DNA of 64,000 bases from Bacteroidota bacterium (lineage in GTDB: Bacteria > Bacteroidota > JABWAT01), in contig JAFLBE010000021.1 in the NCBI GenBank assembly GCA_017303995.1, positions 1 through 64,000 on the forward strand, read 5' to 3'. The notes under the pieces are model-generated. The model was not told where the DNA came from. It saw nothing but the letters and a program-made list of their open reading frames with translations, and did not search any database. A program made the position numbers and the translations under genes. The first letter of the stretch is position 1. Each line of letters opens with the position of its first letter. Positions 3 to 30,624 of this stretch are shown here, piece after piece.

Positions 3-467
3 ACTTATTTTTGGATGGGTAATCATTTTGCCTATCTGACCTTTATCATGGATATGTTCAGCCGGAAAATCCTTTCTGCAATTGCAAGTCAGACACTTCT
101 GGCCGATGAAACTGTTCTTCCTGCACTAAAAAAAGCAATTAAAACCAGAAACAATGAGATTCCTCCCAAATTGATTCTACACTCTGATGGTGGGGGTCAA
201 TATTTTTCCCACAACGTTCTGACCATTATCAAAAAGTACACGATTCAGAGTAGCAGAGCGCAATCCTGTTATGAAAACGCTAATGCCGAAAGAATCAATG
301 GTACAATTAAAAATGACTACCTGATCCCTAAAAAACCGCAGTCTTTCTCTGAACTTTCTCTTTTACTTAAAAAGACTGTTTATCTTTACAATCATGAAAA
401 AACTCACAGTTCTCTTAACAACTTAACACCGGATCAATTCGAATATTTTAATTATAAATCGAAGTGA
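3..467 (+). CDS. IS3-family transposase OrfB, 3' part
   Basis: C-terminal part of an rve-type integrase domain; the gene begins before the window, since the frame is open from base 3 (TYFW before the first Met). It reads like the IS3 OrfB core: DMFSRKI after the first strand, HSDGGGQY around the second catalytic Asp, and ENANAERINGTIKNDYL around the catalytic Glu, followed by the usual YNHEKTHSSLNNLTPDQF end. The first Asp (of DIT) lies outside the window. Counting from the second Asp to the Glu gives 33 intervening residues rather than the usual 35, so this is a slightly short variant. OrfB with OrfA forms the transposase that moves the element by a circular intermediate. OrfA, the left end and the left inverted repeat are not visible, so intactness cannot be judged. 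Confidence 0.85.
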   Translation, partial: TYFWMGNHFAYLTFIMDMFSRKILSAIASQTLLADETVLPALKKAIKTRNNEIPPKLILHSDGGGQYFSHNVLTIIKKYTIQSSRAQSCYENANAERINGTIKNDYLIPKKPQSFSELSLLLKKTVYLYNHEKTHSSLNNLTPDQFEYFNYKSK

Positions 468-502
468 CATCCTTTATAAATCTTGTCAACGTTATTCAGG
501 CA

Positions 503-542
503 ATTACAACTTGTAACTTACCACTTATCACTTGTCACTGAT
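503..542 (-). repeat. Heptamer array after carB C-half
   Basis: On the minus strand, starting about 3 bases after the stop codon at 543, the sequence runs AGTGACA, AGTGATA, AGTGGTA, AGTTACA, AGTTGTA: five successive variants of one heptamer. Similar arrays follow the stop codons of three other minus-strand genes (ends at 2578, 24217 and 31713). Confidence 0.75.
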
Positions 543-2330
543 TCACACCAGCTCGTACTGATAATATTCCTGAATGGATCTGACCACCCAGTTTTCTTCA
601 AGTGTACGGTAAATTCCCTTCACGGCAGCTTGCGCACCTGAAACGGTGGTGATAACCGGAACCCGGTGAAGAATGGCAGCAGAACCAATGGCATTTTCAT
701 CAAAACGGGAAGCTGCACCCAGCGGCGTGTTGAAAACCATGGCAATTTCACCGTTCTTGATCATATCCACGATATCCGGACGACCTTCATTCACTTTGAA
801 AACGGTTTCAACTTCATATCCCTTTTCACGCAGATAAGTTGCCGTTCCCTGAGTTGCAAGCAGCTTGAATCCGAAGCGGGCAAGTCCGTCTACAGCCTGG
901 AGCAAACGGTCGCCTTTGTCACGATCGTTTACAGAAATGAAAATGGATCCTTTTTTCGGAAGGCGATTCCCGGCTGATAACTGTGATTTTGCAAAAGCAC
1001 CGCCAAAATTGGGCGAAATCCCCATCACTTCACCGGTCGACCGCATTTCAGGACCTAAAAACACACCGGCATTCGGGAATTTGCTGAATGGGAACACTGA
1101 TGACTTAACCGTGATGTAACCACGGTAGGTAAATTCAGGCAGATTCAAATCTTTGAGTTTTTCACCGGTCATAATCCGGGCTGCAATTTTTGCAAGCGGA
1201 ACTCCGGTTGACTTGGATACAAACGGAACGGTTCTGGATGCACGAGGATTCACTTCAAGAATGTAAACCTGACTGCCCTGCTGTGCAAACTGAATATTCA
1301 GTGGACCCAAAACCTTCAGGGCTTTGGCAATTCTGACGGTATACTCCCGGATAACATCGAGTTTCTGGGTTGCAAATTGTGGCGGAAGAACCGAAGTGGA
1401 ATCACCCGAGTGAATTCCGGCTTCTTCAATGTGCTCGAGAATCCCGCCAATGTAAACGTCATCGCCGTCACAAACCGCATCCACATCAAATTCAATGGCA
1501 TTTTCCAGGAATTTATCAATCAAAATCGGGTGCTCATCACTGACTTCAACGGCAAATTTCATGTAAGTTTCAAGCTCAGAAGTCGAGTTCACAATCTGCA
1601 TGGCCCGTCCGCCAAGAACGAAAGATGGTCTCACCAGAACCGGATAACCGATTTTTTCTGCAATCACTTTGGCTTCAGTAAATGAAAAGGCTGTTCCCCA
1701 TTCAGGAACCGGGATACCAATACTGTCAATGAGATTCCCGAAAAGTTTACGGTCTTCTGCAAGCGCAATTCCCTCAGGTGACGTACCCAGAATATTTACG
1801 CCGGCATCGGCCAAACGCTGAGCCAGTTTCAGTGGGGTTTGTCCGCCAAAAGTCACAATCACACCGTCAGGTTTTTCGAAGTCGATAATGTTCATCACAT
1901 CTTCGAAAGTCAGCGGTTCAAAGTACAACCGGTCAGTCGTGTCATAATCAGTTGAAACGGTTTCTGGGTTGCAATTCACCATGATGGTTTCGAAACCCTT
2001 GGCCTTCAGGGCAAAAACGGCATGGACACAGCAATAATCAAATTCAATTCCCTGACCAATCCGGTTCGGACCGCCGCCAAGAATGATCACTTTTTTTCTG
2101 TTGGAAGGTTTGGGTTCGTTATTTCCGTCGTAGGTCGAGTAGAAGTACGGCGTATAAGCTTCAAACTCAGCCGCACAGGTATCCACAGATTTAAATCCGG
2201 GAATGACGCCGTGTTCAATCCGGAGTTTGCGGACAGAATTTTCATCAGTTTTCAGCAAAACAGAAAGCTGTTTGTCGCTGAAACCGTATTCCTTGGCTTT
2301 TTGCAGAATGTCTCTGGTAATGTTTGCCAT
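543..2330 (-). CDS. carB: Carbamoyl-phosphate synthase large subunit, C-terminal half
   Basis: 595 residues covering the second half of CarB, which makes carbamoyl phosphate from carbamate and ATP for pyrimidine and arginine synthesis. Residues 1-60 continue the oligomerisation domain (KAKEYGFSDKQ..., VDTCAAEFEAYTPYFYSTY). About 80-200 is the pre-ATP-grasp fold (GGGPNRIGQGIEFDYC), 200-430 the second ATP-grasp domain, and 455-595 the MGS-like allosteric domain (ISVNDRDKG..., LLATQGTATYLREKG). The N-terminal half is a separate gene at 4063-5535, and a DUF4139 gene lies between them. Together the halves (490+595) match the length of a normal CarB (about 1,070), so nothing essential seems missing. 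The break lies inside the oligomerisation domain. Split CarB is known in Methanocaldococcus and Aquifex. No carA is present in the window. Confidence 0.95.
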   Translation of the reverse strand: MANITRDILQKAKEYGFSDKQLSVLLKTDENSVRKLRIEHGVIPGFKSVDTCAAEFEAYTPYFYSTYDGNNEPKPSNRKKVIILGGGPNRIGQGIEFDYCCVHAVFALKAKGFETIMVNCNPETVSTDYDTTDRLYFEPLTFEDVMNIIDFEKPDGVIVTFGGQTPLKLAQRLADAGVNILGTSPEGIALAEDRKLFGNLIDSIGIPVPEWGTAFSFTEAKVIAEKIGYPVLVRPSFVLGGRAMQIVNSTSELETYMKFAVEVSDEHPILIDKFLENAIEFDVDAVCDGDDVYIGGILEHIEEAGIHSGDSTSVLPPQFATQKLDVIREYTVRIAKALKVLGPLNIQFAQQGSQVYILEVNPRASRTVPFVSKSTGVPLAKIAARIMTGEKLKDLNLPEFTYRGYITVKSSVFPFSKFPNAGVFLGPEMRSTGEVMGISPNFGGAFAKSQLSAGNRLPKKGSIFISVNDRDKGDRLLQAVDGLARFGFKLLATQGTATYLREKGYEVETVFKVNEGRPDIVDMIKNGEIAMVFNTPLGAASRFDENAIGSAAILHRVPVITTVSGAQAAVKGIYRTLEENWVVRSIQEYYQYELV

Positions 2331-7665: not shown

Positions 7666-8094
7666 ATGAAAAAACCATACACCATTCCTGAAATTCTTAA
7701 AACCCACAAACGGATTGCTGTCCTGGGTTTAAAACCCGGACACATGGAAGTCTCGAATCAGATTTTTCATTTTCTGATTGATAAGGGATTTGATGTGGTG
7801 GGAGTGAATCCGAAGTTTGCCGGAACATATATCGCCCACAAACCGGTTTATGGCACGTTGTCTGAAATTCCGGGACAAATCGATATTGTTGATGTTTTCA
7901 GAGCCTCTGAACATCTTCATTTGCATGTTGATGATATTCTGGGGATGAATCCCCTGCCGGGTGTTGTCTGGTTTCAGCAGGGAATTTCAAGTGAGGAAGT
8001 GGGAGCGACACTGGAATCGAAGGGCATTCAGGTCATTCAGGATTATTGTATTGCCGTTGCATATTCAACTCACAAACCTGAGATTGAAGGGTAG
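7666..8094 (+). CDS. CoA-binding domain protein
   Basis: 142 residues matching the stand-alone CoA-binding (YccU-like) Rossmann family: the first strand is RIAVLGLKPGHMEVSNQIFHF, followed by GFDVVGVNPKFAG and the end VIQDYCIAVAY. Such proteins bind CoA or acyl-CoA; the biological role is not established. Length is normal for the family. Its stop overlaps the convergent RAYT gene (ends at 8070) by 25 bases. Confidence 0.8.
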   Translation: MKKPYTIPEILKTHKRIAVLGLKPGHMEVSNQIFHFLIDKGFDVVGVNPKFAGTYIAHKPVYGTLSEIPGQIDIVDVFRASEHLHLHVDDILGMNPLPGVVWFQQGISSEEVGATLESKGIQVIQDYCIAVAYSTHKPEIEG

Positions 8095-8663
8095 ATTTTT
8101 TTAAAGAAACAATCTTCTTCCCATTGCATTGGATTGTTTTGTATGTATTCTTTGATTCGGTTGAATTCGGGTTCGTTTCTGATTACATGTTCGTAATAGT
8201 TCCGCTGCCAGACTTGAGCCCCCGGTGTATGTCGTAAAGTATTGATCTTAGTTGTTACTGCTGCTTTAAATCCCGCAATAAAAGCCCCGATTGTTTTTGA
8301 TTTCGGTCCTGTAGGGGCGACCGGCTGGTCGCCCGGAATTTGAATTTCGCATTCCATTACTGAATGGGCGACCAGCCGGTCGCCCCTACAAATTTCTGGC
8401 GATTTTATTGCGATGATTCCATGAAAATGATTTGGCATCAAAATCCAATCATATAATTCTAATTCCCGCCTTATATCCACCGATTTTATCCATTCTTCCA
8501 CAACAATTTTCCCAAGCTGATTTGGAGTAAGTTCTCCATTTTGAATTTCACCAAATAAATTTTGTTTGTTATGAGCACAAATTGTTAAAAAGTAAAATCC
8601 TGGTGCAGAATAGTCATAGCCTTTCAACCGCAATGACTTACGGTTTGGATATAATTTTGACAT
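8070..8663 (-). CDS. REP-associated tyrosine transposase (RAYT)
   Basis: About 197 residues of the Y1 (IS200-like) transposase family. The start is put at MSKLYPNRK, since the upstream frame to 8762 is translated repeat. It shows YDYSAPGFYFLTICAHNK, the HUH metal motif PNHFHGII, and the single catalytic Tyr region WQRNYYEHVIRNEPEF followed by IQNNP. RAYTs nick and move single-stranded REP/REPIN hairpins and are kept as single-copy, domesticated genes. Two palindromes of the GGGCGACC..GGTCGCCC family lie inside the coding frame (8310-8334 and 8366-8390, inverted to each other), adding about 25 residues between the HUH and Tyr parts (the CRGDRLVAH... and PGDQPVAPTG text). A third copy sits just upstream. 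The frame remains open through the insert. Confidence 0.85.
   Translation of the reverse strand: MSKLYPNRKSLRLKGYDYSAPGFYFLTICAHNKQNLFGEIQNGELTPNQLGKIVVEEWIKSVDIRRELELYDWILMPNHFHGIIAIKSPEICRGDRLVAHSVMECEIQIPGDQPVAPTGPKSKTIGAFIAGFKAAVTTKINTLRHTPGAQVWQRNYYEHVIRNEPEFNRIKEYIQNNPMQWEEDCFFKKIYPSISGL
8310..8334 (-). repeat. GTAG-foot REP, copy A, inside the RAYT gene
   Basis: GTAG followed by the palindrome GGGCGACCGGCTGGTCGCCC (arms GGGCGACC / GGTCGCCC). It forms an inverted pair with the copy at 8366-8390, giving a REPIN-like unit of about 81 bases. Confidence 0.85.
8366..8390 (+). repeat. REP, copy B, inside the RAYT gene
   Basis: GGGCGACCAGCCGGTCGCCC followed by CTACA, the complement of the GTAG foot. 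It is the inverted partner of 8310-8334. Confidence 0.85.
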
Positions 8664-8722
8664 CGATGGTTTCGTTATATTGATTTTTCGGGATCGTAAA
8701 ACGGTTCGGGATATTTCAGAGC

Positions 8723-8747
8723 GGGCGACCAGCCGGTCGCCCCTACA
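8723..8747 (+). repeat. REP, copy C, upstream of the RAYT gene
   Basis: Same 20-base palindrome and CTACA tail as copy B, 60 bases upstream of the RAYT start and just downstream of the sigma54 activator gene. Confidence 0.85.
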
Positions 8748-17586: not shown

Positions 17587-18270
17587 TGTAGAAATGAAAA
17601 AGGGCGACCAATTGGTCGCCCTTTTTGTTTAAGACAAAAAAACAGTTCTCCCGCGGATGTCGCAGATTTTCACGGATGGACAGGATGAAAGAGATAATGG
17701 TTAATGGAAATCAAACTGCATTTCCTCGCCCCAGAGGGGTGACCTCTTGCTTGCCCGTGGCGCAGTCTTGGGGTAGAAAAACGAACACGCCCCAATTTCC
17801 TAATCCGGACGGAACACATCCAATTCTGACCCCCTTCCACACTTCTTCCACAACGAAGGAACAACGAAAGACCGACGAACTTACCTAATACAAAGAGTGG
17901 ACATAAGTTATGAAAATGGAACCTGAAAATGGAAACACTCCAGAAAGACACCAAATCAAGCATATAATTAAAAATGATCTGACGTTCCTCTTTTACCCAA
18001 GTCGGGTGCGAAATCAATCCATGAAATTTAAATTCTTTTTCCAATAGAAATAACTGATCTCTCCACTCACTCAACAAAAAAGAATATTCTACCTGAGACT
18101 CACCCGCTAAGCATAAGTTACGGTTAATTTATGTGTTAAATATATCACAAAATTGCCGCGTTTTAGAAAAAAAAAAAAACACTTTAATTCATAGTTGAAT
18201 TGAATTTAATAAAAAGCGCTTCTATCTTTTACATAGCGTTATTACACAAAACCGAATTCCCGAAAAACCC
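17587..18270. other. Intergenic region, 684 bases
   Basis: Holds the terminator at 17599-17626, then unannotated sequence. 17660-17780 looks like reused repeat text (for example CTTGCTTGCCCGTGGCGC). An open plus frame of 45 codons at 17909-18046 (MKMEPENGN...) and a minus frame at 17670-18077 have no recognisable domain. The text at 18170 has a long A-run. No supported gene. Confidence 0.5.
17599..17626 (+). terminator. Terminator of the symporter operon
   Basis: Stem AAAGGGCGACC / GGTCGCCCTTT with an AATT loop, followed by a T-run, 12 bases after the last stop. The stem arms GGGCGACC / GGTCGCCC are identical to those of the REP repeats elsewhere in the window. Confidence 0.85.
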
Positions 18271-23895: not shown

Positions 23896-23924
23896 AAAAG
23901 GGCGACCAACGGTCGCCCTTTTTT
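23896..23924 (+). terminator. Terminator of the subtilisin gene
   Basis: Stem AAAAGGGCGACC / GGTCGCCCTTTT with a 3-base loop (AAC) and a T-run. Like 17599-17626, it uses the same GGGCGACC / GGTCGCCC arms as the REP repeats. Confidence 0.85.
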
Positions 23925-28845: not shown

Positions 28846-29031
28846 CACTCCACCTTAATTATTAAGATTTTGCATGCGTTTTTTTAAGTAATTGATTGTA
28901 TTGCAAGAATAATGCCGAATGAAAAAGCAAAAAAGACCATTTTGGGTTTAGTAACTTCCGTCGGGGAAATACGTTCACCGCAGAGACGCTGAGAACGCGG
29001 AGCGGGGGGAGGTTATTTTTTATTTGGTTAT

Positions 29032-29056
29032 TGTAGAGGCTACCGGCCGGTCGCCC
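29032..29056 (-). repeat. Degenerate GTAG-foot REP, inverted partner
   Basis: Read on the plus strand it is TGTAGAGGCTACCGGCCGGTCGCCC-like, with several changes from the consensus. It faces the intact copy at 29142-29165, the same inverted layout as the pair in the RAYT gene but with a longer spacer. Confidence 0.6.
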
Positions 29057-29141
29057 ATTTATTTTGAAATGGAGTAGATAAATGACCAATAACTGTTTGG
29101 CCCGCGAATTAAATCATTTTTGGAAAATTCAAAAATTACCC

Positions 29142-29165
29142 GGGCGACCAGCCGGTCGCCCCTAC
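29142..29165 (+). repeat. REP copy near gltB
   Basis: GGGCGACCAGCCGGTCGCCC plus CTAC: identical to copies B and C at the RAYT gene. Confidence 0.85.
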
Positions 29166-29292
29166 GAATTAAAAATTAAAAAATCTCCCTCCGCTCTGTG
29201 TTTCTCTGTGACTAACTCAGTGCCCCTCTGTGGTTAAATGCATTTGCATTTCTCTGCGTTCCCTGCGTCTCTGCGGTGGATTCCCCCGCCGT

Positions 29293-30624
29293 TTACCCGT
29301 TTTTTCTAATCTCTTTCCCAATCCGGCAGTCCAGGCATTTTTTCTTTGAACACCAGTTGTTGTACAGGTTCAGCAATCCCCAGTGAAAAGTGGTGGTGTG
29401 GTCGGTGATGCCGAATTTTTGTCTCATGGTTTTGTCAATCGCAATATCCTGCCGGTGCGGAAACGAGTCACACAAACTCAGAACCAGATCCTGCAAATCG
29501 GACCTTTTAAATTCTCTAGCATATAAATAAAGGACCGGGAACCAGGTGTTAAACAAAATCGAAGCTTTTCTTTCTTTCCCGATTTTATACGCCGGTGATG
29601 ATTTCACCGATAACAGATTCATCAGATCCGGGAAAATTTTCTCTGGCCGTGATCCCATATTCAAATGGGCTTCCAGGGTCAGAATCAGTGGTTTCAGGAA
29701 TCCGGTCTGGTAATATCTTCCAACCAGTTCGGCAGCCGATTTCAGTCTTTCTTCAGGCTGATTCACTGCTCTGACTGATTTTGTTTTCCACTCGGAAGGA
29801 TGAAAGAGATTTCCGCGCTGCAAAACCTCTTTCCTTATTTTTTCGATGGGATTCACACCAAATTCAGGTTCTTCTTCCAATCCGGCAAGAAAAAACCATT
29901 CTGAAAGCAGGGGCTGACCTGTTTCTCCTGTGATATCCGGCCAATCTAAAACCGGGAGTTCTCTCGCTAGCCGTTCAAACCTTTCTTTGTTGGACGGATA
30001 GCCAAGCGCTCTGAAAAATCCTTCAAATAAAAGCTGATCCCAAACATATCGTTTTCCTTTCAGATAAACCGGATTTGCAGTCAATTCTTTCAACCGGATG
30101 GCAAACCGGTTTACTTTTTCCAGAAAAGCAAGGTGGCCAAGTTCTGTCAGCCAGGCTTTTGTCAGGGTCTGACTCACACCCTGAAGCTGACCGCCGCAGG
30201 GAATATCTGTTTTGAAATTGAGTTTTTCCTGAAGAGACAAAACCCCGATCAAATCCTGAAAACTCAGCATTTTCGACAAAGTCAGATGAGGGATTCCGGT
30301 TCCGTTTTTTGCTGGAACTGACTCGTAACCGGGCAGATTGTAAAAGGAAACGTGGAGGATGCAGTGGTTGTAGGCGGGGTCGGTTGAATGCCGGTGGGTA
30401 AACCAGTCTTCAGACTGAACGTGAAGTTCAACTGAGCCGTGAACCGGTTTTCGATCCAGAAGTAAAACGGCGTCCTGAAAATCAGGTCCGTTCGACTCGT
30501 TTTCCCTTCCGGGATTGTGGATTTCTACAGAACGGCCGTCGTCAGTGGTTAAGGTTTTACCAAAAAGATAACCTGAAGACCATAAACGGGTCAGATACAG
30601 CTCGGGAAAAGCAGAAGCAGACAT
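29293..30624 (-). CDS. DUF2851 family protein
   Basis: 443 residues. The N-terminal signature is clear: IHNPGRENESNGPDFQDAVLLL, GSVELHVQSEDWFTHRHSTDPAYNHCILHV. The C-terminus ends with a cysteine cluster (NWCSKKKCLDCRIG) that could bind a metal. The family is common in Bacteroidota-like genomes and its function is unknown; a nuclease-like role has been suggested for the fold only by the charged N-terminal motifs (inference, weak). It is on the same strand as pyrF, 44 bases downstream of it, so it may be co-transcribed. Confidence 0.8.
   Translation of the reverse strand: MSASAFPELYLTRLWSSGYLFGKTLTTDDGRSVEIHNPGRENESNGPDFQDAVLLLDRKPVHGSVELHVQSEDWFTHRHSTDPAYNHCILHVSFYNLPGYESVPAKNGTGIPHLTLSKMLSFQDLIGVLSLQEKLNFKTDIPCGGQLQGVSQTLTKAWLTELGHLAFLEKVNRFAIRLKELTANPVYLKGKRYVWDQLLFEGFFRALGYPSNKERFERLARELPVLDWPDITGETGQPLLSEWFFLAGLEEEPEFGVNPIEKIRKEVLQRGNLFHPSEWKTKSVRAVNQPEERLKSAAELVGRYYQTGFLKPLILTLEAHLNMGSRPEKIFPDLMNLLSVKSSPAYKIGKERKASILFNTWFPVLYLYAREFKRSDLQDLVLSLCDSFPHRQDIAIDKTMRQKFGITDHTTTFHWGLLNLYNNWCSKKKCLDCRIGKEIRKNG

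Follow-up and report, generated by a model that had tools for sequence, protein, structure and literature searches.

The RAYT gene described here, which lies in a stretch of DNA of 64,000 nucleotides (the window), probably encodes an active group-4 enzyme (TnpA_REP subclass 2.4) that carries REPs of its own family, as tolerated survivors, in the hypervariable linker that joins the HUH strand to helix alpha-C; judging from its sequence, we give this reading a probability of about 0.82. The observations behind it are the in-frame copies, the open frame, the intact catalytic residues, the occurrence of palindromes at the same site in most relatives, the copies of one family in both loop and flank, the purifying selection on the REP-bearing cores of relatives, and a structural model in which the linker is unordered. 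The enzyme would recognise GTAG-footed single-stranded hairpins and would occasionally copy or move REP hairpins near its own gene. In-frame copies in the solvent-exposed linker would survive because the two catalytic half-domains are left undisturbed, and the loop REPs would then persist and turn over by duplication, deletion and replacement of units. We infer that the window RAYT is active, that it mobilises the window REP, and that the REPs stay in the loop through survival and not because of a function.

The RAYT gene and its REP copies

The open reading frame lies on the minus strand and likely starts at ATG 8663, although the frame stays open upstream of this codon as far as TTG 8762. 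The interval 8070-8747, to which the sequence-only reading had assigned the RAYT, comprises the gene and the upstream REP (Table 1). Residues H79, H81, K133, W152, Y173 and N177 are invariant among the 38 relatives compared, and the frame contains no stop or frameshift despite the insert. The Pfam match to Y1_Tnp is barely over the cut-off, and the NCBIfam match to REP_Tyr_transpos has an E value of 6e-18 yet falls under the curated cut-off. The only match in a sequence search of the PDB was 4er8 (E = 0.0028), a RAYT bound to a REP hairpin, which was also the best Foldseek match of the predicted structure. The end of the RAYT gene overlaps that of a convergent gene for a CoA-binding domain (7666-8094) by 25 nt (window 8070-8094).

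Table 1. Features of the RAYT gene and the REP copies in and beside it (window coordinates unless residues are given)
Feature	Position	Strand	Sequence or remark
RAYT / TnpA_REP gene, 197 aa	8070..8663	-	motifs, invariant residues, fold match to E. coli RAYT 4er8
HUH motif NHFH	residues 78-81 of RAYT		
W motif WQ	residues 152-153 of RAYT		VWQRNYYEHVIRNE
Catalytic Tyr	Y173 of RAYT		within YIQNNP
Internal REP copy	8310..8334	+	GTAGGGGCGACCGGCTGGTCGCCC; read in gene as PGDQPVAPT
Internal REP copy, inverted	8366..8390	-	read in gene as CRGDRLVA
Upstream REP copy, same family	8722..8747	-	~60 nt 5' of RAYT ATG
Window-family REP hairpin			GTAGGGGCGACC...

The palindrome GGGCGACC(AGCC/GGCT)GGTCGCCC occurs three times, at 8315-8334, 8366-8385 and 8723-8742. 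With their GTAG feet pointing outward, the two internal copies form a REPIN-type pair, the footed arms being 25 nt each, 100% complementary and spaced by 31 nt; as single-stranded DNA, the pair folds into one long hairpin (-39.4 kcal/mol, z = -10.2). It spans 81 nt, or exactly 27 codons, in frame between the HUH motif and the catalytic Tyr. The sequence-only reading, which had described an inverted GTAG-footed pair that leaves the frame unbroken and adds about 25 residues at this place, together with a third copy 60 bases upstream of the gene, was accurate on each of these points. In 64 kb, zero matches to the 20-mer would be expected by chance even if up to 3 mismatches are allowed, and a chance origin of the copies is excluded.

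According to pattern searches of the whole genome, the same 20-mer occurs at more than 15 other places, or about 20 or more when close variants are counted. The family is dispersed and most of its copies are single; one neighbouring pair is direct, not inverted (contig C106, 13821/13890), and window 29037/29142 is a looser inverted pair. When the other copies of the family were checked for interrupted genes, the overlying open frames either had no Pfam domain or carried the REP before the domain, as in a thiolase and a proteasome subunit frame, where the REP is likely 5' of the true start. Many of these REPs lie 20-40 nt from a G-rich phrase with a T run (GCGGGGGGAGG..TTTTTT; window 29000-29300 and loci L013, L014, L015, L017, L024 and L034), and CTCTGTG or CTCTGCG phrases sometimes adjoin them, which hints at a composite intergenic repeat. 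In addition, unfooted GGGCGACC..GGTCGCCC palindromes with the same stem are followed by T runs at window 17602-17621 and 23900-23918 and resemble terminators.

Class assignment and published precedent

RAYT group 4 of Bertels et al. 2017 is reportedly the same as TnpA_REP subclass 2.4. By its motifs and architecture, the predicted protein matches this class. Its NHFH, WQ and YIQNNP agree with the motifs tabulated for the subclass, NH[IFV]H, WQ and YIxNNP (PMC6006769). It also has the variable insertion between beta3 and alpha-C, a feature restricted to subclasses 2.3 and 2.4 (PMC6006769), has no long C-terminal extension (the protein stops at 197), and has long GTAG-footed REPs both in frame and beside the gene. 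REPs located in frame between HuH and Y are themselves a feature of subclass 2.4 (Quentin et al., 2018; PMC6006769), and the window gene differs from that description in nothing essential, its REPs being two inverted copies that each have one GTAG foot. The in-frame REPs of the window RAYT are an already published and usual habit of its subclass; the sequence-only view that a REPIN inside a RAYT is unusual does not hold, and two more RAYTs of the same genome do likewise. A literature search for RAYT group 4 found nothing beyond Quentin et al. (2018).

Two other systems invite comparison. Rickettsia palindromic elements (RPE) and the intragenic GTAG/CGTC REPs (Di Nocera et al., 2013; PMC3733652), which include in-frame REPs listed in other genes, likewise contribute 20-30 in-frame residues to otherwise functional proteins in the form of short palindromes. 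However, they occupy many unrelated host genes, whereas the host in the window is the cognate transposase and the site is fixed. The E. coli TnpA_REP (4er8) shares the HUH, W and Tyr motifs and is both the top fold match and the only sequence match in the PDB, but it belongs to subclass 2.2 and is without the beta3-alphaC insertion (PMC6006769).

Loop palindromes among relatives and in the same genome

Our survey covered 150 group-4-like genes. The window genome, together with 80 genomes of the same phylum, supplied 71 of them, and the remaining 79 were obtained by scanning named genomes of Cyanobacteria, Chloroflexi, Bacteroidetes, Nitrospirae, Planctomycetota and other groups. The linker had a palindrome score of at least 9 in 97 of the 150 genes, compared with 11 for core windows of the same length, and it exceeded all 50 shuffles and all core windows in 96; because shuffles of GC-rich linkers reach 9 in 57 of the 150 (best of 50), the comparison with the core and the joint test are the reliable ones. 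A GTAG- or GTGG-footed palindrome was present in 100 genes, and the foot was read as GTA/G (69), xGT/AGx (23) or GTG/G (5), the slash marking the codon boundary. The frame in which its TAG would be a stop codon was never used, as must be so if the gene is to stay open. The linker sequence varies among relatives and yet stays palindromic, so that the finding named beforehand as the mark of a normal loop, the same residues in relatives over DNA that is not palindromic, was not what the relatives presented. Of 112 genes, 45 had a copy matching their loop REP in their own flanks (within 1 kb); when the flanks of other genes were searched instead, the rate was 1.6%.

The length of the linker is hypervariable, from 10 to 191 aa in the survey, and the palindrome is absent from the short linkers of L091, L096 and L099. 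The RAYT loops of L084 (G022) and L086 (G044), 156 and 191 aa long and far beyond the usual length, consist of many tandem units (VRVENNN..., LLGEPLSGDS...) in an open frame. Between related genes (for example L044/L071 and the tandem copies of L042), the loop palindrome has been replaced by a different perfect palindrome. Locus L042 (G008; 371-2049, minus strand) holds three tandem RAYT genes, two of which have a common loop palindrome and the third another. Both fast turnover and co-evolution would agree with the perfection and the replacement of the loop palindromes. Passive decay of old insertions would not leave perfect palindromes in so many of the loops, which means either that the turnover is rapid or that selection acts on the hairpin.

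At this site, two further RAYTs of the window genome hold palindromes of two other families, each with a palindrome copy just outside the gene as well. The RAYT of contig C89 (L010) has a loop about 117 aa long with several copies around GTAGGGGCAGAAAATATTCTGCCCCTAC, and that of C13 (L009) has GTAGAGACGCGATTAATCGCGTCTCTAC in its loop, read as RRDAINRVST. The REPs of both genes have a double foot, and each window REP has a single GTAG foot.

Probable tolerance of the insert, and alternatives

The earlier reading had offered two outcomes for the insert, inactivation or tolerance as a surface loop. Most likely the insert is tolerated: the loops of relatives hold other palindromes, their cores are under selection, and the linker is of low confidence in the model; the inactivation half of the proposal fared poorly. 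The closest homologue found in the window genome, the 80 genomes of the phylum and the named-genome scan was L107 (51% identical). As no homologue above 51% was found there, close pairs of other members stand in for near strains of the window gene with and without its insert. L047 and L072, with a core identity of 99%, differ by one extra in-frame VGARRRP unit, and L059 and L098, which come from the two other genomes in the genus of the window, hold one and two REP units; the number of units differs in frame between cores that are 96-99% identical. In eight REP-bearing pairs of other members, core dN/dS was 0.06-0.56 and mostly <0.35, and the REP-bearing cores of these relatives are under purifying selection. 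In the AF2 model of the window RAYT, the core blocks have a pLDDT of 84-98 and the linker, between the strand 79-86 and the helix 125-144, one of about 46-58. The natural homologue L091, whose linker is 10 aa long, has the same elements, with strand and helix only 7 residues apart. The idea that the peptide itself is selected was unsupported: in hydropathy, the used frame is slightly more hydrophobic than the other open frames (-0.16 vs -0.70), and a more hydrophilic peptide is thus not preferred.

We consider it unlikely, though likelier than the other alternatives, that the internal REP is maintained for a function, in which it either links the enzyme with its cognate hairpin in transfer or is bound by the RAYT in its own gene or mRNA, limiting expression. 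Two thirds of the 150 genes, across many phyla, keep a linker palindrome despite differing sequence, but some members have a short linker that lacks one. Often no further copy lies near the one in the loop, given that only 45 of 112 have a match in the near flank, and the C89 family (exact 11-mer) and the C13 family (exact 17-mer) are confined in this genome to their own RAYT gene and its immediate side. Furthermore, the palindrome is identical in one REP-bearing pair whose core dS is 0.72; however, the number of REP units varies between near-identical genes, and selective survival combined with turnover gives the same pattern.

That the insertion has inactivated the window copy appears very unlikely. 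The addition of 27 codons to a small catalytic domain would speak for it, and with a closest homologue that is only 51% identical, divergence alone would leave room for recent decay. However, stops and frameshifts are absent, the invariant residues are all intact, the linker lies outside the confident core of the model, and homologues with similar or longer inserts are under purifying selection. If the loop were just a variable part of the protein, with DNA that happens to be palindromic, this would agree with the hypervariable linker length, but this reading is refuted by the genomic copy number of the 20-mer, for which no chance match is expected, and by the shuffles, with palindromes concentrated in the linker rather than the core, and its probability is negligible.

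The reading that we prefer, tolerated survivors in the linker of a probably active RAYT, leaves current understanding unchanged as far as the window gene alone is concerned. Together with the two other RAYTs of its genome, this gene is a clear case of a published but little-studied habit. There is a small chance that group-4 RAYTs contain the loop REP as an obligate part that co-evolves with them. In that case, inheritance, transfer and swapping would each involve the enzyme and its recognition hairpin together, and binding of the hairpin might serve self-regulation. Because the loop hairpin is varied yet palindromic and whole REP units distinguish near-identical genes, these genes are a good natural system for studying how RAYTs choose their REPs and whether any role falls to the internal copy.
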